This document shows, one piece after another, positions 106 through 23,115 of a stretch of 25,427 bases of DNA. Location: positions 1-25,427 of IMG/VR virus record IMGVR_UViG_3300028361_000115. One strand, 5' to 3'. Below the pieces are notes generated by a model, which saw only the letters and a program-made list of their open reading frames with translations, had not been told where the DNA came from and did no database searches. The translations under genes and the position numbers were made by a program. The stretch's first letter is position 1. Every line of letters begins with the position of its first letter. The stretch comes from a virus.

Positions 106-502
106 CTATCTCTTCAAGTGATACATGATATCAGTATAAGAATTATTAGCTGACGTTCTATTGGTAGTTGTACTACAAGCAGCTTCCTTAAAAGGATTTG
201 CATTATTAGCAGTTCTAGTTTCAACCCACTCGCAAACCTCTAAGGCTCTCAAGTATTAGATTAGTTTCAGGAATAGCTTTCAAACGCTTGCTATAATTGT
301 CAAAATCATTGAAAACAACATTTGCTTCTGGGTGAATATGCCTAACGGAATGACTTAGCAGACCAGAACCGCCAAACAAATCTACATAGGTAGCATTTGA
401 TGGATAGTCGTTTAGTAACTCCTTAAACTTTTTCACAAAAAAACGCTTCTGACCCTGAAAAGGCAAGGGAGCTGATTTAAAATTTTTACTCATTTTATTC
501 AT
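106..502 (-). pseudogene. D12-class DNA adenine methyltransferase, internally deleted and frameshifted
   Basis: The first 87 or so codons from 502 match the N-terminus of a phage D12-class N6-adenine methyltransferase: PLPFQGQK (the PFxGxK SAM-binding motif), YVDLFGGSGLLS (motif I) and FNDFDNY. The frame then hits a stop at 221-223. Shifted by one base at about 235-245, the reading continues as LEVCEWVETRT, NPFKEAAC and NNSYTDIMYHLKR, stopping at 106-108. This closely resembles the usual C-terminus of the same family (ELCEW, NPFK, SYTDIM). Some 100 or more central residues, including the catalytic DPPY motif, are missing; full-length relatives are about 250-280 residues. I infer one out-of-frame internal deletion. 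The enzyme would have protected phage DNA from restriction and cannot be active in this form. Position beyond lysis at the end of the late region parallels mom in Mu. Confidence 0.85.
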
Positions 503-3299: not shown

Positions 3300-4141
3300 T
3301 ATATTTGCACGTTTTTGGGTATAAATTCAATATTCAAATTTTCTTCAGTAATTTCCATATATCCAGCGTTTGCTACATAACCGCTGCTTATTTCTTGAAA
3401 TTCTGCCAATGTTCCATACCTTATGGAAGCTTCATCAATGTACAGCTCTCTATTGGAACAACCATCAAGGTTCTGTAAGCCATCGACTAAAGCAGACAAT
3501 CTAAACTCCCCATTAAAAGGCAAATTCTTTATGAAATTTCTAATCGCATTTTGTACCGGAACATCATCCGTTCCATCTATACGGCTTCCAGAACTATCCA
3601 ATAAAAGCGGATTATAGAAAAACCGAATTACCAGCTTCAATTCATCTGCTGGAGCAGTGAAGATGATTATCTTAGTGCCAGCTGGCTTAATTCTACCAAA
3701 ATATTGCTCCAATCCCAACTTAACAGCTTCACTCACTTCTACAAAAGCATTATCTACCTCAGAAGCAACTTTTATAAACAGGTGCTTCCTGTTTTGTAAC
3801 TCCAACTCTATTACAGCAGCTTGCTTAACTGGTGTATCGGTTTCATCTCCTGGATCATTTTCATAGACATCGCTATACTCAGGCAAATCTTCTCCATGCC
3901 TATATAGCAATGCTTTTTCTCTAAACCAAAGTAAGGAATACTGCTTTTGCTCCCGAATTAACTGATTAACATCTCCCTTAAAACCTGTAAAAAACTCGTA
4001 TTGCAACCAAATCACAAAAGCCACAACATACGCCCACAGCCTATATATTGCCACATTAGACGTACTGTCTAAGCCACTAAGCTCATTTTGTTCCTGGGCT
4101 TTAGTTAGAATTTGATTTTGTATTTCCAGTATTGTTGGCAT
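3299..4141 (-). CDS. Baseplate wedge protein gpJ-like
   Basis: This 280-residue protein carries the N-terminal helical region seen in Bacteroidota phage gpJ-like proteins (RLWAYVVAFVIWLQYEFF, then REQKQYSLLWFREKALLYRHG). An alpha/beta middle follows, and then a segment DGTDDVPVQNAIRNFIKNLPF typical of the family's C-terminal half. In P2 and Mu the J protein forms the wedge that rings the baseplate hub and triggers sheath contraction. The downstream partner is gpI-like, as expected. Oddly the gpW-like gene is not adjacent: about 4.5 kb of other genes separate them (see 4148-8653). Confidence 0.75.
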   Translation of the reverse strand: MPTILEIQNQILTKAQEQNELSGLDSTSNVAIYRLWAYVVAFVIWLQYEFFTGFKGDVNQLIREQKQYSLLWFREKALLYRHGEDLPEYSDVYENDPGDETDTPVKQAAVIELELQNRKHLFIKVASEVDNAFVEVSEAVKLGLEQYFGRIKPAGTKIIIFTAPADELKLVIRFFYNPLLLDSSGSRIDGTDDVPVQNAIRNFIKNLPFNGEFRLSALVDGLQNLDGCSNRELYIDEASIRYGTLAEFQEISSGYVANAGYMEITEENLNIEFIPKNVQI

Positions 4142-4147
4142 TGTTGT

Positions 4148-4489
4148 TTATTTTAGATGAAAAAATACCATAATAAGCCAGAAACTGTGTAGCCTAATCC
4201 TGAAAAAGACATCTATGTAGCTAAATTTAGTTTTTGAATTCCTACCTAATATGCTCAAATAATACATTAATTGCATTACTTTTTTGTTTGAATTTGTGCC
4301 AGATAATTTCATTTGTACCCATTCAAATATTGCTCCCCACCAAAGCCCAGCTGCAAAACAAATCACTGTAAAACCGATAATTCCTAAGCTTTCAAAATCA
4401 AAAAGGAAAGTTAGAGGAAAGAATAAAATAGCACCTAAAAAAAGATGTGCTGTAATTTTGAAAGTTTTTGTTTTGAATATTTTTTTCAT
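4148..4489 (-). CDS. Small membrane protein, 3' end possibly frameshifted
   Basis: This 113-residue protein has two clear membrane segments (about 12-30 and 35-55; LFLGAILFFPLTFLF and IIGFTVICFAAGLWWGAIF) followed by EWVQMKLSGTNSN. Its small size and position in the adhesion/lysis half make a holin or accessory membrane role possible but unproven. After residue 70 the composition looks less orderly. At a run of five A (4203-4207, T on the coding strand), a one-base deletion would exchange the ending RIRLHSFWLIMVFFHLK for SGLGYTVSGLLWYFFI plus stop, a smooth third membrane helix. Either the gene has suffered a homopolymer frameshift or this is a sequencing error. Confidence 0.55.
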   Translation of the reverse strand: MKKIFKTKTFKITAHLFLGAILFFPLTFLFDFESLGIIGFTVICFAAGLWWGAIFEWVQMKLSGTNSNKKVMQLMYYLSILGRNSKTKFSYIDVFFRIRLHSFWLIMVFFHLK

Positions 4490-4512
4490 TTTGTTTGTTT
4501 TAAATTATTATA

Positions 4513-5037
4513 TTAAGGGCATGTACCCCATGCTGGGCGATTTGCTACTGTTAATGCGCTTCTTGTGTCAAATCCTAATGGTACACTTGGAATAAGCGGA
4601 ACGCACCATCCTGATAAGTCTTGATTGAATACTGATGTATTAAAAAACATATATCTTGCATTTACTTCAGTAAGTAATGGAAATTTCCACTTACCTATAT
4701 CCTGATTAAATGAAAAAGCTTGATTAAACATACGGTCAGTTCTAACAACATTAGATGTGTCCCAAGAACTTATATCCTGATTAAATGAAGTAGCACCAGA
4801 ATAAAGCCTTTCAAAAGTAGTAACTAGGCTTGTAACAACTTTCGTAAAATCGTCTACATCTACATCCATTGCAAACAAAGTAGTGTTATCTAGTGCGGTA
4901 TAAGTTTCACCACTAGCCAAATGTACACCTGTATCACCCACTAGATTTCCCGTGTATTCAATCGTAATTCCGTTTTCTTTGTAACGAAATAATGGATTTG
5001 AAAACGCAGGAACTATTCCAGACTTGACTAGCATCAT
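4513..5037 (-). CDS. DUF285/BspA-like repeat protein in the tail cassette
   Basis: The protein (about 174 residues from the start chosen) contains copies of the DUF285 repeat: TSFNQDISSWDTSNV, FSFNQDIGKW and SVFNQDLSGW, with aromatic and Asn/Asp residues at regular spacing. DUF285 repeats are common in surface proteins of mycoplasmas and Bacteroidota and resemble the leucine-rich BspA adhesins. The start was set at the ATG at 5035-5037, one base after the stop of the upstream gene, because the longer reading from 5073 would overlap that gene by 35 bases. No signal peptide is present, so it is more likely a virion component, perhaps touching the host surface, than a secreted protein. Function is inferred. 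Confidence 0.75.
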   Translation of the reverse strand: MMLVKSGIVPAFSNPLFRYKENGITIEYTGNLVGDTGVHLASGETYTALDNTTLFAMDVDVDDFTKVVTSLVTTFERLYSGATSFNQDISSWDTSNVVRTDRMFNQAFSFNQDIGKWKFPLLTEVNARYMFFNTSVFNQDLSGWCVPLIPSVPLGFDTRSALTVANRPAWGTCP

Positions 5038-5038
5038 A

Positions 5039-5590
5039 TTACGCATCCCCATAAGATTTAAAAATGTTATCAATATCTACTTCCATTAGACCAAACAAAG
5101 GCGCAAGCTCATATAGCAACGGGTGCTGAAAATCAAACACAGCACTTGCATTCATAAACATGACTATTTCTGCTTTTTTGTTGGCATCTGTCATTTGAGC
5201 TACAAAGTCGCTAACCGCTACTAAGGAGATTTGGTGTTCTTTTTTAAGAATTTGCCAAAACGCCAAAACAGGTATTGACTTAGGTATTTTGGATAATTCT
5301 AATTTTTCAATTTCTTCTGGTGTAAGATTTTCTATCTCAAAACTAAACCCTGTAGATGTCTCAATAATTTCGCCTAATCTTTGCGTTTTTTCGTTGATTT
5401 CAGGAATTACGACATCTCCAATACCATCTAGCAAGTGTAAGTCTACTCTTTTCTTGTAGTTGTACATACGCGTACTTTGAGAAACTAATACATCTGGTAT
5501 TTGAAATTCAAAAATAGCACCCACTTCAAAATCTTTGAAAAGTTTTGGGTTTTCATCTTTTACTATTTGTTTAAGTTTGATTGCTTTCAT
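5039..5590 (-). CDS. Protein of unknown function in the fibre cassette
   Basis: This protein of about 183 residues starts MKAIKLKQIVKDENPKLFKD. The start at 5590 is preferred over 5617 because it follows the stop of the YadA-like fibre gene (5592-5594). It is mixed alpha/beta, with an acidic stretch ENLTPEEIEKLELSKIPKS near the middle and a hydrophobic C-terminal half (FDFQHPLLYELAPLFGLMEV). I recognise no family. Lying between a fibre gene and a surface-repeat gene, both co-directional and within a few bases, it could be an assembly factor or connector for one of them. Confidence 0.6.
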   Translation of the reverse strand: MKAIKLKQIVKDENPKLFKDFEVGAIFEFQIPDVLVSQSTRMYNYKKRVDLHLLDGIGDVVIPEINEKTQRLGEIIETSTGFSFEIENLTPEEIEKLELSKIPKSIPVLAFWQILKKEHQISLVAVSDFVAQMTDANKKAEIVMFMNASAVFDFQHPLLYELAPLFGLMEVDIDNIFKSYGDA

Positions 5591-9631: not shown

Positions 9632-10603
9632 TTACAGCTTTATGCTTATTTTGTTACTTCGTTTTATTCCGTTAGATTCATCTACATTAATCCCCACCTC
9701 TTCAATTAGAAACTTACCATCTCTTTTTTGATTTGGGTAATTTGGGTCTACCAATTCTAAAAGATCTCCAGCTTTTGTTCTCGGTATGCACCAGCCATCT
9801 ACATTGCCTTCATAGCCTTCAAAAACAATAGTTTTATAGTAATTTTCCGCCCATTCTTTTAGTTCAGCACTACTTAGATTTAGCGGTGCATGCAAGGTTC
9901 TTTCACCATTTACATTTGTACCAAACTCGTATATTGTTTTTTTAGAACTTCCTTTTTGGATTGAAATAGCTTTAATTTTTAAATCTTTTTTATCCTTAGA
10001 AACGTATTTTAAATCGGAGCTTTCTCTTATATTCTTACCAAATTGATAAGAGTGTATGTTGTTTTCAGCTAGATCTAACACCGTTCCTGCTTTTAGAACC
10101 TTACCTACAAACCAACATTTTATGCCAAATTTTCGTAAATCTTCTAAAACCTCATAAGCGGTAGCATTTTGTATACTCAACTTTCCAAGGCTTATTTGTG
10201 AACATGCTAAGGTATATCCGGCAGCTATTTCAGATAATAAATCTTCTAGGCTAATGCTTTCAAAATTCAAATTGAATTTTTTGCTTTTCTTTAGCTTAGA
10301 CATTTCATCTTCACACCTAATTACTGTGGGTATTTCTGCACCAATTTCTGTAATATAACCGGTAAACTCAGTCTGTAAATCTTCATTGTAACCTAGCTTA
10401 ATTTCTACTGGCATATCTTTTTGAATGAAGTCTAAAAGATGTTTACCTCTAAAATCGGTATTGCTATTTAACCTAAATTCTCTAGGTAATGTTATTGTAG
10501 CTGTATCTATAAGACTATTCAGGCTGTTTTCTATCTGTATAGCTATTACATTTGTAATTACTAAATCACCAATAGTTACTGAAACGTCTATGTTTACATA
10601 CAT
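9632..10603 (-). CDS. Baseplate hub protein gpD-like (late control D family)
   Basis: This 323-residue protein shows the hub layout: an N-terminal beta domain (SLIDTATITLPREF, GKHLLDFIQKDMPVEIKLGY, TEFTGYITEI), a middle domain with YEVLEDLRKFGIKCWFVG, and a C-terminal beta domain (PRTKAGDLLELVDP, GKFLIEEVGINV). These are hallmarks of the gpD/gp44/gp27 family, a trimer at the tail tip that adapts the sixfold tube to the threefold spike. The following gene is gpV-like, as in P2 and Mu. The start overlaps the stop of the DUF6046-like gene by one base. Confidence 0.82.
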   Translation of the reverse strand: MYVNIDVSVTIGDLVITNVIAIQIENSLNSLIDTATITLPREFRLNSNTDFRGKHLLDFIQKDMPVEIKLGYNEDLQTEFTGYITEIGAEIPTVIRCEDEMSKLKKSKKFNLNFESISLEDLLSEIAAGYTLACSQISLGKLSIQNATAYEVLEDLRKFGIKCWFVGKVLKAGTVLDLAENNIHSYQFGKNIRESSDLKYVSKDKKDLKIKAISIQKGSSKKTIYEFGTNVNGERTLHAPLNLSSAELKEWAENYYKTIVFEGYEGNVDGWCIPRTKAGDLLELVDPNYPNQKRDGKFLIEEVGINVDESNGIKRSNKISIKL

Positions 10604-11190
10604 TAGCTAAATACATTAAATTCTACTGGCTTAATACTTTTTGCACTCAACACAATTTGAAGTGTATCTGAAAAGCCTTCCAGAGGTTCTATTCGTATAG
10701 ATTGAAAATAAATAGAATCAATCTTTTTGTCTTCAAATTGAATTCCCTCTACATCTATGATGTCATTAATTTCAAAGAAACGAGTAAGCTCTTCTATTTG
10801 GCTTTGTGGGTAGACTTTGTTTTCCATATCTACCAAAAGCCCTCGCATCTCAATTGTCCAAGGTTTAGTTCCCCAACGCTCAACTATGATGTTATCACTT
10901 CCGTTTACTTGGGATTCTATGAGTTGTTTTTCTCTTTGAAATTCCAATAGCAAAGGAGGAGATAGCACATTGGTTTGTGCGCCTGTAAGCATTTGCCCGA
11001 ATTTTATTTCTTGAGTTTCATGCTTAAATGTCAACTCTTCTAGTATGGCATTGTCCTTAGGGTAAAAATCGAAACCATAATCATTTTCATTGGCTTCTAT
11101 AACCGCTGTGTTAAAACTGTTATTGATTGCTAAAACTCCAAAAGCTGCGGCATATCTAGCGGCTAAATCTATAACTATGGTTCTACTCAC
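10603..11190 (-). CDS. DUF6046-like tail/baseplate protein
   Basis: This 195-residue protein contains VERWGTKPWTIEMRGLLVD and an internal FEINDIIDVEGIQF, a pattern I associate with DUF6046, a family in Bacteroidota prophages between the chaperone and hub genes. By position it may replace the tape-measure-proximal or distal tail proteins of Mu. The start is GTG (11188-11190), and the chaperone frameshift extension ends inside it: the bases gtgagtag hold both the start and the overlapping TAG. This overlap is evidence that the hidden reading frame upstream is translated. Confidence 0.65.
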   Translation of the reverse strand: MSRTIVIDLAARYAAAFGVLAINNSFNTAVIEANENDYGFDFYPKDNAILEELTFKHETQEIKFGQMLTGAQTNVLSPPLLLEFQREKQLIESQVNGSDNIIVERWGTKPWTIEMRGLLVDMENKVYPQSQIEELTRFFEINDIIDVEGIQFEDKKIDSIYFQSIRIEPLEGFSDTLQIVLSAKSIKPVEFNVFS

Positions 11191-11724
11191 TTTTTTTTAG
11201 TTTTACATTAAGGTGTCCCGTTTCGCCTAACCAAGCTATTTGCGCTAGCTTAATACTCCAAGTATCATCGTCCAGTTCTTCTGGAAAAGGAATACCCAAA
11301 TAAAAGCTAATGAGTGCATCTGCTTTAAGAAACAAGTCGCCTCCTTTTTCATAGCTTAGACCAGGACAAGCTTCTAAAGCCTTCTGGACTTTCCCTCTCT
11401 AATAGGAATAAGGTCAGACAATGCAATAACTGTGGCGTAAAACAAGCCATCGTCTGCAATTACTTCATCCTTAGAAGTAAGCAAGCATTGTTTTACCAAT
11501 ATTTCTTGAGCCTTCTTAGGATCTTGGTTTTTGAACCTTTGGAACTGTGCAACCACAGAACGATTGGGAACAATAGCAAGCACTTCTAGTATTTCTTCGT
11601 AATCGTCATCTTTTGGCAGCTCCAATATTCTTAGTTTGTCGCCGTATTTTACTTTGTTAGCTTCAACTACTTCTTTGGGTATTTGCAGTGTTGCGCTACT
11701 GATATTTTCTACTTCTTTTTTCAT
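11183..11724 (-). CDS. Tail assembly chaperone, -1 frameshift fusion product
   Basis: Ribosomes slipping back one base at GGGAAAG (11389-11395) would leave the 116-codon frame after codon 112 and add 68 residues, giving a 180-residue fusion. The extension reads VQKALEACPGLSYEKGGDLF, then LKADALISFYLGIPFPEELD, ending HLNVKLKKSE with TAG at 11183-11185. It is protein-like, has no start codon of its own (a stop lies just upstream in its frame) and ends overlapping the next gene's start. Long-tailed phages use this device (lambda gpG-gpGT, P2 gpE-E') to make a short and a long chaperone in fixed ratio for loading the tape measure. Lambda uses the identical heptamer. Confidence 0.85.
11361..11395 (-). 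promoter_or_regulatory. Programmed -1 ribosomal frameshift site
   Basis: In the zero frame the codons are GAG GGA AAG, so G GGA AAG is a canonical X XXY YYZ slippery heptamer (11389-11395). After a 6-nt spacer, AGGCTT (11377-11382) can pair with AAGCTT (11368-11373), including one G-U pair. The three-base loop is the zero-frame stop codon TAG. An outer 4-bp pairing (11384-11387 with 11361-11364) could lengthen the stem. The heptamer is certain; the stimulating hairpin is plausible but short. Confidence 0.8.
11374..11724 (-). CDS. Tail assembly chaperone, short (zero-frame) product
   Basis: The 116-residue protein is helical in its second half (RFKNQDPKKAQEILVKQCLL, then YATVIALSDLIPIREGK) after a short strand-rich start (VKYGDKLRILELP). 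It lies 28 bases after the tube gene, the position of gpE/gpG-type chaperones. Their short form is made in excess and coats the tape measure before tube assembly. Its own stop (11374-11376) lies 12 bases after the slippery heptamer, as expected for a -1 shift. The tape measure it should serve is encoded 10 kb away on the other strand. Confidence 0.8.
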   Translation of the reverse strand: MKKEVENISSATLQIPKEVVEANKVKYGDKLRILELPKDDDYEEILEVLAIVPNRSVVAQFQRFKNQDPKKAQEILVKQCLLTSKDEVIADDGLFYATVIALSDLIPIREGKSRRL

Positions 11725-11752: not shown

Positions 11753-12169
11753 TTAGGATGCAACATTAAGTTGAACGTCTAAGGCAAACAATGGGTATTG
11801 CATTTCAAGTCCCATCTCTCCAGTTACGTTTCTTCCCTCGTTTTGGAACTTAGCTAGTATCTTGTCTACAATGATAAGGTTATACTCGTTAGCAAATTCT
11901 ACCGTAATTACAAATGGCTTGATGCTTAACAAATCTCCACCAGAAGCAATTTCTAATGGTGTTACATCACCCATCATTAAATTGATAGAGGCGGTTGGCG
12001 TAATTTTGCCTTTACTCCAACTTGTAGCTCGTTCACCTAAGGTGTGGTTGAGCTGATGTTCCTGCTCATTGTTATACTCAATAGATTTAACTTCAATAGG
12101 TAAACCATTAATTTGAACATAAACATCTGCACTATCGTAAGCTTTGCCATTTCTGTTTATTCTAGCCAT
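11753..12169 (-). CDS. Tail tube protein
   Basis: This 138-residue protein starts MARINRNGKAYDSADV and has the beta-rich pattern of contractile tail tube proteins: INGLPIEVKSIEYNNEQEHQ, TSWSKGKITPTASINLMMGD and a closing LFALDVQLNVAS. It follows the sheath gene with a one-base overlap, the invariable sheath-tube order. The product stacks as hexameric rings to form the inner tube through which DNA passes. Confidence 0.85.
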   Translation of the reverse strand: MARINRNGKAYDSADVYVQINGLPIEVKSIEYNNEQEHQLNHTLGERATSWSKGKITPTASINLMMGDVTPLEIASGGDLLSIKPFVITVEFANEYNLIIVDKILAKFQNEGRNVTGEMGLEMQYPLFALDVQLNVAS

Positions 12170-13404
12170 TATTCTCTGGTTTTAAGATTAAGCGTTCCAT
12201 TTATCTCATTAATTGTTCCTTTGGGAACAATTACATAACTTACTCGTAGTATTTTCTCTACCAATAAATCGCTTTCAGGATTAATCTTTGTTTTGCCAAA
12301 GCTTATTTCCCCTCTAGCAAACATATCTTGAAAAACATTATCTCCAATATCTTCCAATGCTACAATAGTTCCACTTGTTAGTTTTCCAGTAGCACTATCT
12401 ACATTCCAAGTCGTTTTTGCTTTTGGTAAATAAGCGGTTCTTAATTCTCTCACCGCTTTGTCTGCAACACGACCATACGCAATAGTATGCTCGTTTATAT
12501 TGTTGTCATCATCCAAAATTTTAGGAGTACATACATGATCGTTGTTAAATCTTGCACCAGCTAAGCCAATGTAATTCACTCCAAAAATGTAACCTTTAGC
12601 ATCCAATGTTTCTAATTGTTCTGCAAGTTCTGTATTTGTAGTATGATTAGATAAGCCGGGTTCTAACCAAGCTCCACGTGTTGCATCTGTTAGATTATAT
12701 TGCTCATTGTCGCCAATGTTTTCATGTACTTTTGCTCTAGCTAAAACGCCCAATGCTGTACCTACATCTGCATAACTACGTATGGATTGTGGTAAAGTAG
12801 CTGCATAAGTATAATCCTGTCCAATTACCAAGCTTACTTTGTCTGCTTGCAAATCTGGAATAGCTCTCAAATCTAAAACAGTTGCAGCACTAGCTATTGT
12901 GTAACATTCCAGTAAAATCTGCAAAGGCATAAAATTAGCAAACGCCCAATTGTATAATCCTTGTGCAAGTGGGATTGCATTGTGTACTTCTGTAGGTATG
13001 CCATCTAACAACACCACTTCAGGTGCAGTCTCTACATCTTTAGCGTTGATAAATGCAATTTGTCTAATTTCACCTTTGGCTTCATTCAAAATGTTTCTAG
13101 CTTGATCTAAAGAACCTATTAAGTCTTCATCCCAATTAAAGAGAAACAACTTAGTACCTTCACCAGCATTTCGGAAGAATTCCTTACAATGCCGGTGTGC
13201 AATGGTAAGGTTTTCATCATCATAGGCTTGTGTAATGCCCAATGCTTCCACATCGCTCATAGTGTAGGCTACGTATAGTCTACCTATTTCAAAGTCATCA
13301 GGCGCATCCAAGTGAACAAATACCATAGCACTCACGCTATCATTACTGCCTAATCGGTTAGCACCAATTCTACCTTTGCTTATATTTACAGCATTAAGAC
13401 TCAT
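12169..13404 (-). CDS. Contractile tail sheath protein (DUF2586 type)
   Basis: The 411-residue protein begins SLNAVNISKGRIGANRLGSN and continues with an alpha/beta domain (GEGTKLFLFNWDEDLIG, GEIRQIAFINAKDV), the Bacteroidota-type sheath that I know as DUF2586. Its C-terminal part (GEISFGKTKINPESDLLVEK, then LRVSYVIVPKGTINEI) matches the conserved sheath core domain that interlocks neighbouring subunits through extended arms. It is followed directly by the tube gene. The 11-bp overlap with the preceding small gene suggests coupling. The presence of a sheath establishes a myovirus-type tail. Confidence 0.85.
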   Translation of the reverse strand: MSLNAVNISKGRIGANRLGSNDSVSAMVFVHLDAPDDFEIGRLYVAYTMSDVEALGITQAYDDENLTIAHRHCKEFFRNAGEGTKLFLFNWDEDLIGSLDQARNILNEAKGEIRQIAFINAKDVETAPEVVLLDGIPTEVHNAIPLAQGLYNWAFANFMPLQILLECYTIASAATVLDLRAIPDLQADKVSLVIGQDYTYAATLPQSIRSYADVGTALGVLARAKVHENIGDNEQYNLTDATRGAWLEPGLSNHTTNTELAEQLETLDAKGYIFGVNYIGLAGARFNNDHVCTPKILDDDNNINEHTIAYGRVADKAVRELRTAYLPKAKTTWNVDSATGKLTSGTIVALEDIGDNVFQDMFARGEISFGKTKINPESDLLVEKILRVSYVIVPKGTINEINGTLNLKTRE

Positions 13405-18596: not shown

Positions 18597-21125
18597 ATGA
18601 GTAACCACTATACACAAAATCAAAACGGACTGTTTTTGCCACAAGCAAAAGCAAGTACGCGTAAAAAAGTAAATCCAAAAGTAATTGAAATTGTAGAGGG
18701 CTTTAAAGATCGTTCAAGAAAAGACATAGACAAGTGGCGTAGAGCCATTCAATATACTCAGTTTACCGGACAACAAAACCCACGTTTTGACTTTTACCAT
18801 GACCTTGTAGACGATTTGCTTACAGATGGGCATTTGCAATCTCAAATAATGATGAGATTAACGGCTACTACAAATACAGATTTTCATATTCTAAACCGAA
18901 AAACAGGAAAAGAAAATGAAGATTTGACCTTCCTATTTAGACAACAATGGTTTTTTGAAGTATTAGAAGCTTTCCTAATGCAAATTATTAGAGGATTTCA
19001 ATTGGTAGAATTCACCTCTTTTGAAGATTACAATATAAAACTAAACCTAATCCCACAAAGGCACGTTACTCCAACAAAAGGGCAAATTATACCCGATTTA
19101 ACATTGATTAATAACAGCATAGATTTTGACAATCCAGCCTTTGACCAATGGTTGCTAAAATTAGGTAAAAGACAAAACCTTGGCATAATAAACAATATTA
19201 TTCCTGCTATTATTTGGAAGAGAAATGTAGCCCAGTCCTGGGCAGAATTCTGTGAGCGTTTTGGCATACCCCTAATTACTGCAACCACAGCTGCTAGAGA
19301 TAACAAAACAATAAACGATGTGCATGACATGCTTATTGGTGTTGGCGAAGCTAGTGTAGGAACGTTCCCACAAGGTACAGATATACAATTGCATGAAGCC
19401 AACAGAACAGACGCCTTTAGAGTATACAAAGAATTTATCCAACTCAATACAGACGAGATAAGCAAACTCTTAGTAGGCTCTACCATGTTAAGCGACCAAG
19501 GATCTAACCGTAGCCAAACCGAAGTGCATGAAAGAAGCCTTGACAATAAAATAGCAGCATCAGACAAGCGTAATGTGCTTTTTATGATAAACAATCAGCT
19601 ATTGCCACTATTACAATTGCACGGATATGCCGTTTCTGAAGATGATGTATTTGAATTTAAAACCGCAGAACAAGAGGTGAACCTTGAGGAGCTTTGGACT
19701 ATTTCTAGTGGTTTATTGAATCACGGTTTTCCAGTAGAACAAAAATGGTTATCAGAAACCTTTAACATTCCTTTTGATGGCATACGTACCATAAAAAAAG
19801 AGGATGAAAAAAAAAACCCTGACCTGAAACCCTTAGCGCATTTGTATCCTGAAAAATACCCCATAAGTTGCTGCGAAGAAAGTCTACCCACAGCAAGCTT
19901 TAGCACTAGCGTTTCTCAAAAAATAATCCAGCTCACCAAAGAATTAGCCCTAGGCTTACTCACCAAAGCAGATGTTTCTGCTATTATAGGTAAGCTTATT
20001 GTTACAGAAGCATTACAGCTTACTGCTGGGCTTTATAGCGGTTTTGGAAAAACAGAAAGCTACACATCTCCAGATAACTTGGTTTTACAAATGATGGAAT
20101 ACAACCTTTTTGATTTTGCAGCAAGCAAAACAGAAGCTAGAAGCTATGCCATTGCACAACGGATTATAGACTACGAAAAAGGAGCAATAAAAAACCGAAG
20201 TACCTTTTTACAAGAAGCTCTAGCAGATAATGAGATGCTTAACACTACCTATCTTAAAACCGAGTATGATACCGCCGTTGCTACTGGTCAAAACTCAGCA
20301 GCTTATGTTAGACAACTTAAAGAAGCAAAAGAGGGAAGACAAAGATACCTCCAGTACCAAACCATAGGAGATGCTTCAGTAAGAAGTTCTCACAGAGCTT
20401 TGGACGGCAAAATATTTGATATACTTGAAGAAGGTGCTAAAAACGTTTACCCTCCAAATGGCTACAATTGCCGTTGTGAATTTGTACCCTACACTGGACA
20501 AATAAATGAAAGTAATAAAATGACATGGGACAAAGCTGAAGGCATGTTAGCCAACTCAGATCAATCTTACATAAAAGCGGGTTTCAATATAAATAGAGGA
20601 GATTTAAAACAAGTATTTACACAAAAACAATTTTACAGAGATATAAAAGGTTTGCCAGATAATATAAATAAAATGACTTATGATAAGTATGGCTTAGGAA
20701 CTTGGGAAGAAATAAAAGGGAAATTTGCTGAATTAAATATAGACCAAAGCATTACACAGAAAAATGCAGACGAGTTATTTAAAGCACTACCAGACAACAA
20801 AAAGCGAATGGGTTTTACAGATTACCTTGGACGTAATTTACTTTTAACAAAAACAAGCTTTAATAGACATAAAAAAAGAGCAGAATACTTCCCTTTTGTA
20901 AAAGACATATTGGCAAAACCTGATGAAGTATGGTTAACAAAGCACTACAAAAAAGGCTATCAGACCAATTACATAAAACATTACGCTAATAAAAGCTTGT
21001 TGGTTTCAACAACTTTAGGTGAAGGTATGGAAGGAATACAAATTGAAACTTGGTTTGATATAGACTATACTAAACCTTTAAATAGAAGAACTGGATTATT
21101 AATTAAAAAAGGGAAGGAATTATGA
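18597..21125 (+). CDS. Portal (DUF935) - MuF - nuclease toxin fusion
   Basis: Three parts appear in this 842-residue protein. Residues 1-425 match the Mu gp29-type portal (DUF935), the ring through which DNA enters the head. Residues about 430-630 match Mu gpF (gp30-like) and carry its signature near GDASVRSSHRALDG (His599) and YPPNGYNCRC (Cys625, Cys627). After a linker, residues about 735-840 resemble the phage Barnase-EndoU-ColicinE5/D-RelE-like (PBECR) nuclease group: LTKTSFNRHKKR (His758), YFPFVKDILAKPDEVWL, NYIKHYANKSLLVSTT and RTGLLIKKG. MuF proteins often carry C-terminal toxins that are packaged in the head and injected. Portal and MuF are separate genes in Mu. No immunity gene follows in the 115-bp gap. 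The 3' end looks more AT-rich than the portal part. Confidence 0.85.
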   Translation: MSNHYTQNQNGLFLPQAKASTRKKVNPKVIEIVEGFKDRSRKDIDKWRRAIQYTQFTGQQNPRFDFYHDLVDDLLTDGHLQSQIMMRLTATTNTDFHILNRKTGKENEDLTFLFRQQWFFEVLEAFLMQIIRGFQLVEFTSFEDYNIKLNLIPQRHVTPTKGQIIPDLTLINNSIDFDNPAFDQWLLKLGKRQNLGIINNIIPAIIWKRNVAQSWAEFCERFGIPLITATTAARDNKTINDVHDMLIGVGEASVGTFPQGTDIQLHEANRTDAFRVYKEFIQLNTDEISKLLVGSTMLSDQGSNRSQTEVHERSLDNKIAASDKRNVLFMINNQLLPLLQLHGYAVSEDDVFEFKTAEQEVNLEELWTISSGLLNHGFPVEQKWLSETFNIPFDGIRTIKKEDEKKNPDLKPLAHLYPEKYPISCCEESLPTASFSTSVSQKIIQLTKELALGLLTKADVSAIIGKLIVTEALQLTAGLYSGFGKTESYTSPDNLVLQMMEYNLFDFAASKTEARSYAIAQRIIDYEKGAIKNRSTFLQEALADNEMLNTTYLKTEYDTAVATGQNSAAYVRQLKEAKEGRQRYLQYQTIGDASVRSSHRALDGKIFDILEEGAKNVYPPNGYNCRCEFVPYTGQINESNKMTWDKAEGMLANSDQSYIKAGFNINRGDLKQVFTQKQFYRDIKGLPDNINKMTYDKYGLGTWEEIKGKFAELNIDQSITQKNADELFKALPDNKKRMGFTDYLGRNLLLTKTSFNRHKKRAEYFPFVKDILAKPDEVWLTKHYKKGYQTNYIKHYANKSLLVSTTLGEGMEGIQIETWFDIDYTKPLNRRTGLLIKKGKEL

Positions 21126-21240: not shown

Positions 21241-23115
21241 ATGGCAGCAAAAAGCAAAATTACCTTACTTATGGATTTATCAGACAAGCTATTTTCTGAT
21301 AAGCTAGACAAACTACAAGGCAAATTTGATAAAAAAATAGACAAGCTTGGGCAAAAGCTAGGCATGGAAAACGCTACACAAAAACTGCAAAAAGGGATTA
21401 AAGTTGCTGCTATTGCAGGTATAGCCGCTTTGGGTGTGTTAGGCACAAAAGGGGTGCAAGCTGCAGAACGCTTTGATTCTGCATTTTTGCCCATTAGACA
21501 ACTTAATCTAGACAAGTCCAAAAGCGAAATGGATGCTTTTAGAGAACAAATACGAGATGCTTCTTATGAAATGGGTACAGATTTGCAAGCTTCTACCAAT
21601 GCGGTTTACGATTTGCAATCTGCTACTGGAACTTTTGGAGATGATGCTATTTCTATATTTCAAAAAGTAGGCAGGTACTCCATTGCAACCGGAGCAAATA
21701 TAAACGATGCCATGAACTCTACTACCAAAGCCATGAAAGCTTTTGGGCTAGAAGTAAAAGACATAGACCAGCTCTTAGAAAGCAACGCAAAAACCGTACA
21801 AACAGGGATTACCACTTTTGATGAATTGGCAAAAGTACAAACCGAATATGCTGGAGCTGCAAGCGCAGCTGGTCAAGATGTAGATTCTGCAAACAAAATA
21901 TTTGCCATGTTTACCAGTATAGCCAAAAACTCTGATGTAGGTGCAGGTATGACCAAAAGCTTTTTTGAAGGACTAGGACAGCAAGCCAGTAAATTTGAAA
22001 GCACATTAGGCATATCTGTATTTGATGAAGATGGAAGCATGCGAGCTGCGGATAACATCTTAAAAGATGTTGCAAAAAGCTTTGAAAGCATGAACGATAA
22101 ACAGATATCCGAAGCCATAAATAAAATAGGTGGTCCAGATGGGTTAAGAGGAGCTTTGTCTAAAGTTTCTAAAGGAGCTGAAGACATGATCGCTACTTTT
22201 GATGCCTTTGATGCATCCCAATTTAGCCTTGCAGATGCGCTGAGTAATGCTGAAGGTGATTATGGTAAAATGAGAGAAATCTTCTTTAACCGGATTGATA
22301 TTGTGTTGAGCAAATTAGGTGAAAAGGTTATACCTATGCTAGCTAAATTGTTTGATACCTTAACTCCTGTACTTGGTTTTATAAATGACAATATGGAATG
22401 GCTATTGCCTGTTTTTGGTACTTTTATTGGCTTGCTTGGTGCAGCAAGTATAGCCATGTGGGCTTTAAATTCTGCCATGTTTGCCAATCCTGTAGTTTGG
22501 ATAGTTGCAGCCGTAGGCGGACTTATAGCACTTATAGCAGTAGCCATAAACAAGTTTGATGAGTGGGGCGCAGGAATCTTAGCACTTATGGGACCAATAG
22601 GTTGGCTAGTAATTGGAATTAAAAAACTGGCTGAACATTGGGACGGTATTGTAGAGGCATTTGAAAGCGATGGTATTATGGGAGGTATAAAACGGATAGG
22701 ACTATTTTTGCTAGATGCTTTAATTACACCTGTAGACCAGCTCTTAAAAATGCTTGCAAAAATACCCGGCTTAGGTAATCTAGCAGCAAAAGGAACTGCT
22801 TATATAGAAGGTATGAAAAGTGCCTTAGATGTAGAACTAGGCAGAAACCAAAAAGAAGAAACAAACGAGCAGGATAGCTTAATTCCTGAAAAAGAAAAGA
22901 AAAAAAACACTGGGAATGGCACGCTAGAAAATACCATAAAAGGAGTTACTCAATCTGCTACCAGTGCCAAAACCATAAACATAAAAATAGAAGCACTCAT
23001 GAAAGGAGATGTGAATGTGAATGAGGGAAGTGGCAAAAAAATAAACTTTACCGAGTTTGAAGGAATGTTTAATGATATGATGATGCGTATAGTGCGCAAT
23101 GCAGAACTAAGCTAA
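21241..23115 (+). CDS. Tail tape measure protein
   Basis: In this 624-residue protein, residues 1-75 form a helical, Lys-rich start with a hydrophobic stretch (VAAIAGIAALGVLG). Residues about 80-330 form the conserved core of TIGR01760-type tape measures (AFREQIRDASYEMGTDLQAS, GRYSIATGANINDAMNSTTK, TVQTGITTFDELAKVQTEYA). Residues about 386-463 hold long hydrophobic helices that may enter the host membrane. The rule of about 1.5 angstroms per residue suggests a tail around 90-95 nm. It lies on the opposite strand from tube, chaperone and sheath, 9 kb away, which is unusual. A 115-bp gap precedes it, without an obvious promoter. Confidence 0.88.
   Translation: MAAKSKITLLMDLSDKLFSDKLDKLQGKFDKKIDKLGQKLGMENATQKLQKGIKVAAIAGIAALGVLGTKGVQAAERFDSAFLPIRQLNLDKSKSEMDAFREQIRDASYEMGTDLQASTNAVYDLQSATGTFGDDAISIFQKVGRYSIATGANINDAMNSTTKAMKAFGLEVKDIDQLLESNAKTVQTGITTFDELAKVQTEYAGAASAAGQDVDSANKIFAMFTSIAKNSDVGAGMTKSFFEGLGQQASKFESTLGISVFDEDGSMRAADNILKDVAKSFESMNDKQISEAINKIGGPDGLRGALSKVSKGAEDMIATFDAFDASQFSLADALSNAEGDYGKMREIFFNRIDIVLSKLGEKVIPMLAKLFDTLTPVLGFINDNMEWLLPVFGTFIGLLGAASIAMWALNSAMFANPVVWIVAAVGGLIALIAVAINKFDEWGAGILALMGPIGWLVIGIKKLAEHWDGIVEAFESDGIMGGIKRIGLFLLDALITPVDQLLKMLAKIPGLGNLAAKGTAYIEGMKSALDVELGRNQKEETNEQDSLIPEKEKKKNTGNGTLENTIKGVTQSATSAKTINIKIEALMKGDVNVNEGSGKKINFTEFEGMFNDMMMRIVRNAELS

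Follow-up and report, generated by a model that had tools for sequence, protein, structure and literature searches.

Based on the analysis reported here, we suggest that the minus-strand locus at 11724-11183 of the window, i.e. the whole 25,427-base virus record that was analysed, is almost certainly a tail assembly chaperone frameshift gene of the G/GT type, carried by a Mu-like, contractile-tailed phage related to the Winoviridae of Bacteroidota. In this model, most ribosomes would read the zero frame to its end and synthesize a G-like protein of 116 residues, while a minority would slip by -1 on the heptamer G GGA AAG and continue into a GT-like fusion of 180 residues. During the slip, the P-site tRNA-Gly would re-pair from GGA to GGG and the A-site tRNA-Lys from AAG to AAA. 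By analogy to lambda, the G part would coat the tape measure protein and the T part, which is encoded in the -1 frame, would recruit tail tube subunits; both parts would be absent from the finished virion. That the shift takes place in vivo, how efficient it is and what the two products bind are inferences. Programmed frameshifting in a chaperone gene is itself a well-known phage mechanism. The -1 frameshift predicted here to yield a G/GT pair is well supported and, in the literature that we searched, appears to be new for this phage group.

The locus consists of the following elements:

11724-11374, minus strand: zero-frame ORF (G-like), ATG to TAG, 116 amino acids, matching phrog_19076 (unknown function)
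11395-11389, minus strand: candidate slippery heptamer G GGA AAG, within zero-frame codons GAG GGA AAG and in X XXY YYZ phase
11389-11183, minus strand: -1 frame extension (T-like), 68 codons and a TAG stop, joined after zero-frame codon 112

The 3' end of the ORF reads CTT ATT CCT ATT AGA GAG GGA AAG TCC AGA AGG CTT TAG. Translation of the -1 frame after the slip gives VQKALEACPGLSYEKGGDLFLKADALISFYLGIPFPEELDDDTWSIKLAQIAWLGETGHLNVKLKKSE, followed by TAG at 11185-11183, and the predicted fusion has 112+68 = 180 residues. The initial annotation had proposed this ORF, the in-phase heptamer, the 68-codon -1 frame and the 180-residue fusion, and its coordinates hold on re-reading. It had also placed the end of the -1 frame inside the GTG start of the next gene. 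The two genes do overlap; the wording is slightly loose in that the -1 stop lies over codons 2-3 of the downstream DUF6046 gene, the GTG of which is at 11190-11188. In a relative that is 99% identical to the window (L002), the downstream gene starts with ATG. In the window itself, the -1 frame lacks ATG, and the first codons at which translation could initiate are two TTGs (tail codons 18 and 30).

Relatives were gathered from viral contigs, Bacteroidota species genomes and annotated phage records, giving a survey of 39 loci including the window, 35 of which are non-redundant (<85% identity). A Mariniflexile locus (L043) and a locus in which the chaperone was not identifiable (L012) were excluded, and a wide sheath alignment proved too diverse to be used for collection scans. 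It had been argued that a broken -1 frame or an unconserved heptamer in relatives would speak against a frameshift. Neither was found: the -1 frame is open in 39/39 loci, and in 36/39 the heptamer is either kept or swapped for another canonical one. A canonical X XXY YYZ heptamer thus lies in phase near the zero-frame end in 36/39 loci and in 32/35 of the non-redundant ones, whereas shuffling the codons of each ORF in the 35 loci predicts 3.8 (Poisson-binomial P about 3e-30, a value that ignores shared ancestry). The 32 heptamers comprise AAAAAAG (19), GGGAAAG (8), AAAAAAA (3) and AAAAAAC (2). In 7/35 loci, with the window counted, GGGAAAG occurs at the window's position (12 nt ahead of the zero-frame stop), while 25 more have a canonical heptamer elsewhere or with other letters; a DNA alignment of GGGAAAG users (nine rows) shows no variation within the heptamer. 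The three exceptions among the 35 are L010 and L037, which have G GAA AAG instead, and L011, in which no obvious shift site was found. At all three, the tail is conserved in the absence of a canonical heptamer (L011 6551-7179, L037 4446-4954, L010 4849-5339), and non-standard shift sites are possible there.

In a protein tree built with the slip-adjacent residues removed, the window groups with Riemerella columbipharyngis (97/98) inside a 13-member clade (100/100). The heptamers of this clade are GGGAAAG in eight members, AAAAAAG in four and the non-canonical G GAA AAG in one (L037), and within the clade the distance between the site and the zero-frame stop changes from 12 to 3 nt. About nine changes of heptamer type are needed across the whole tree. 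Thus, the letters of the heptamer changed several times while the shift site was kept. Several relatives have a second, out-of-phase GGGAAAG (TTT GGG AAA GT) just 3' of the in-phase one (L016 and L018, both 4798-4813; L033 4790-4805; L026 2332-2347). These copies are near the position of the only in-phase site of L036, and could possibly be relics or precursors of a relocation of the site.

The heptamer is of a type known to be prone to shifting. In Escherichia coli, G_GGA_AAG and A_AAG are both shift-prone, and G_GGA_AAG highly so (PMC5009743). The lysine codon at the heptamer of the window is AAG, though the genes of the window use AAA three times as often as AAG (126 vs 43). Riemerella columbipharyngis, which is the host of the nearest relative found in a bacterial genome (L025), carries tRNA-Lys(UUU) in two gene copies and lacks tRNA-Lys(CUU). 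E. coli likewise has only tRNA-Lys(UUU) for lysine, which makes A AAG slippery. By the same reasoning, an AAG codon in the A-site should be slippery in R. columbipharyngis too.

The -1 tails behave as coding sequence. Similar, alignable tails are present in all 39 loci. Between the window and the Riemerella locus L025, pS is 0.94, pN 0.17 and pN/pS 0.18 for the tail (pairwise, beyond the zero-frame stop). In saturated pairs, tail pN/pS ranges from 0.18 to 0.35, and in unsaturated pairs dN/dS ranges from 0.03 to 0.24, with one exception of 0.50 (L006/L040). The tails are thus under purifying selection, and the remaining frames across them contain several stops. An AF2 model of the tail has moderate confidence (pLDDT 76) with two main helices. 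Database searches with the T tail gave no informative match, so a role like that of lambda T would follow from its position and the architecture of the locus.

Conserved coding in a second frame could also arise if the -1 frame were a separate gene with its own internal start, e.g. the TTG at tail codon 18, and the heptamer were incidental. In the window, AAGGAGGCGACTTG provides a Shine-Dalgarno-like stretch (AGGAGG) in front of this in-frame TTG, and short genes of such a kind were called by the annotators of fF4 and pippi8-1. However, residues that recur among the tails are encoded 5' of the TTG, and 32/35 in-phase heptamers would be left unexplained. Moreover, a start codon is not conserved in the first part of the tail: up to and including tail codon 5, 0/35 loci have an ATG and 3/35 have a start codon of any kind, which disfavors independent initiation. 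We consider a separate gene very improbable. About as improbable is a change of frame by transcriptional rather than ribosomal slippage at a homopolymer-like run. Some relatives do have long runs of A (nine in L049), but the window and its nearest kin have GGGAAAG with no long run, and the codon phase of the heptamer, which such slippage does not need, is kept in 32/35 loci. If the locus of the window were read alone, it would also allow for an ancestral gene split by a frame-breaking mutation or a sequencing error; the relatives refute this explanation, to which we assign a negligible probability, because the two-frame layout is shared by 39 loci, which come from metagenomes, prophages and isolates, the functional phage fF4 among them. 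A programmed -1 ribosomal frameshift is our preferred reading.

Several lines of evidence support that the zero-frame protein is a tail assembly chaperone, an identity that the initial annotation had assumed. In a profile search, the protein matches PDB 3FGX (RBSTP2171) with E=2.4e-4. An AF2 model of the 116-residue protein (pLDDT 88.6) also has 3FGX as its top Foldseek match (E=9e-4, TM 0.61/0.72). HK97 gp13 (2OB9; prob 0.87, E 0.08) is the second match and YqbN (3KLU; prob 0.80, E 0.28) the fourth, each of them weak alone. RBSTP2171, HK97 gp13 and YqbN have been grouped as phage tail assembly chaperones (PMC9603447). It is the joint agreement of this set of matches, and not the HK97 and YqbN matches alone, that supports the identification. 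DUF6848 is matched weakly in three relatives; in Pfam, no family scored above the cut-off for the G protein. A weak Pfam match of this protein to MazE was judged to be due to chance. phrog_19076 was matched by all 30 zero-frame homologues that we scanned. The family is listed as "unknown"; the present reading would assign it a function, and would add a gene product that had been missing.

The predicted system resembles known chaperone frameshift genes to different degrees. The heptamer of lambda itself is G GGA AAG, identical to that of the window. As in lambda gpG/gpGT, the -1 shift would take place near the end of a short chaperone gene and give a minor fusion (PMC5009743), and conservation of the G-T frameshift is widespread among long-tailed phages (PMC5009743). 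The chaperone gene is next to the tail tube gene, as it is in lambda. Unlike lambda, the window phage is contractile-tailed, Mu-like and of Bacteroidota, and the tape measure gene of its clade is in an opposite-strand module rather than downstream; the searches made gave no hit to the sequences of lambda G or T. HK97 gp13, Bacillus YqbN and Geobacillus RBSTP2171 (3FGX, DUF6848) are similar in predicted fold, with a profile match to 3FGX, whereas identity to them is about 6-17%. Phage Mu has its frameshifted chaperone in the same functional slot, and the window has the head genes Portal_Mu and Mu F; however, the shift in Mu is -2 (PMC5009743), while the family described here uses X XXY YYZ heptamers for a predicted shift of -1. 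Among annotated phages, the pair QHJ72923/QHJ72924 of fF4 is orthologous and has its heptamer at the identical position, but is annotated as two hypothetical genes.

The extension had been described as hidden from ordinary gene calling, and this is borne out by the records examined: the tail end is annotated as a separate small hypothetical gene in fF4 and pippi8-1, and is left as a gap in the Peternella and FPSV-S1 records. In the papers on fF4, Peternella and pippi8-1/Baltic Flavobacterium phages, the words "frameshift" and "chaperone" are not used once. We found no earlier report of a frameshift in these phages in the literature searched, a body of literature that most subscription papers fall outside. 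Thus, a conserved protein of Winoviridae-like phages is either absent from their records or wrongly split in them. The survey also supplies some 35 naturally occurring variants of a -1 shift site from Bacteroidota, which could help to determine what signals act as stimulators of frameshifting there.

The genes around the chaperone locus, and the tape measure gene, are as follows:

12169-13404, minus strand: tail sheath (DUF2586; PF10758 E=9e-31; phrog_907 tail sheath)
11753-12169, minus strand: tail tube protein, assigned by position and phrog_4579 "tail protein"; the PHROG that it matches best is named major head protein
10603-11190, minus strand: DUF6046 protein, baseplate hub-like (PF19512 E=1e-34; PHROG baseplate hub)
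21241-23115, plus strand: tape measure protein, 624 amino acids (PF10145 E=3.5e-21; phrog_28 E=3e-41)

Wherever a tube gene was identified in the relatives, the chaperone gene follows it directly. In the window, baseplate genes lie downstream of the chaperone gene in addition to DUF6046. The tape measure gene of the window is apart from the chaperone gene, in the head-gene module on the opposite strand. A split arrangement of the tape measure gene is also present in fF4 (MN850656 12078-14078, minus strand), and L037 has an opposite-strand match; in a sister clade, the gene order is sheath-tube-chaperone-tape measure-DUF6046. The tape measure protein of fF4 has 666 residues (2,001 bases), and a tape measure accounts for ~0.15 nm of tail length per residue, giving about 100 nm. 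fF4 is a spontaneously induced, plaque-forming functional myovirus with a tail of ~95 nm (PMC7761591), in agreement with a role of the displaced gene as the ruler. According to the paper on fF4, the position of the tape measure gene varies among such prophages.

With respect to RNA structure, two candidate elements overlap the end of the zero frame:

11368-11382, minus strand: hairpin AGGCUU-UAG-AAGCUU, 6 nt after the heptamer
11355-11378, minus strand: alternative stem with 5' arm UUUAGA (11378-11373, holding the zero-frame stop) and 3' arm UCUAAG (11360-11355)

The first of these, together with its 6-nt spacer, was part of the initial annotation. Both are present as letters, while the stability and conservation of the hairpin are not borne out (z = 0.08 vs shuffles). 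We rejected it as a conserved element: 55.6% of cells are paired in the relatives, and covariation is not above that in shuffles. The alternative stem, of the UUUAGA/UCUAAA type in the GGGAAAG clade, agrees better with the relatives than the hairpin does, and has 79% of cells paired at its register vs <=46% when slid. It is short in the window and longer in L016, L018 and L033; no double-sided covariation was found for it in the GGGAAAG clade, and the predicted folds of neither the window nor fF4 favor it. Hairpins following the heptamer have a mean z of -0.89 vs -0.53 and -0.36 at control positions, and 12/35 loci are below -1.5. Thus, strong hairpins follow the site in several relatives; in the window, a hairpin stronger than at control positions was not found after the heptamer, and there is no convincing stimulatory structure. 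A low shift efficiency such as that of lambda may not need a stimulator.

We consider it possible, if somewhat doubtful, that three features go together in these phages: the tape measure gene, in an opposite-strand operon, would be uncoupled from the chaperone frameshift; the slip signal would be fluid, with GGGAAAG and AAAAAAG interchanging and the distance of the site from the stop changing by 9 nt (12 nt to 3 nt) without loss of the -1 frame; and the zero-frame stop would lie in the 5' arm of a stem that may stimulate the shift.

Gene content indicates that the window is a Mu-like, contractile-tailed phage. It has CLP_protease (Clp protease), Phage_capsid_4 (capsid) and lysozyme genes in addition to the DUF2586 sheath, Portal_Mu and Mu F. 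The Winoviridae share a core of Clp protease, capsid, sheath and Mu-like structural proteins (PMC8776804). The nearest named relative is Flavobacterium phage fF4, which is filed under Winoviridae and has the same heptamer and tail, with 51% protein identity.

The analysis also led to observations on other genes. In the window, an ORF of 842 amino acids (18597-21122, plus strand) combines Portal_Mu and Mu F with a C-terminal PBECR2 nuclease-like domain. An ORF of 93 amino acids (221-502, minus strand) matches only the first 57/253 positions of the D12 adenine methyltransferase model and therefore looks truncated. Between the baseplate genes and the left end, the ORF at 4513-5073 (minus strand) matches DUF285. 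In L043 from Mariniflexile gromovii (3874-5354), DUF6046 comes right after the capsid gene, with the sheath, tube, chaperone and tape measure genes absent between them; this locus is possibly a decayed prophage.
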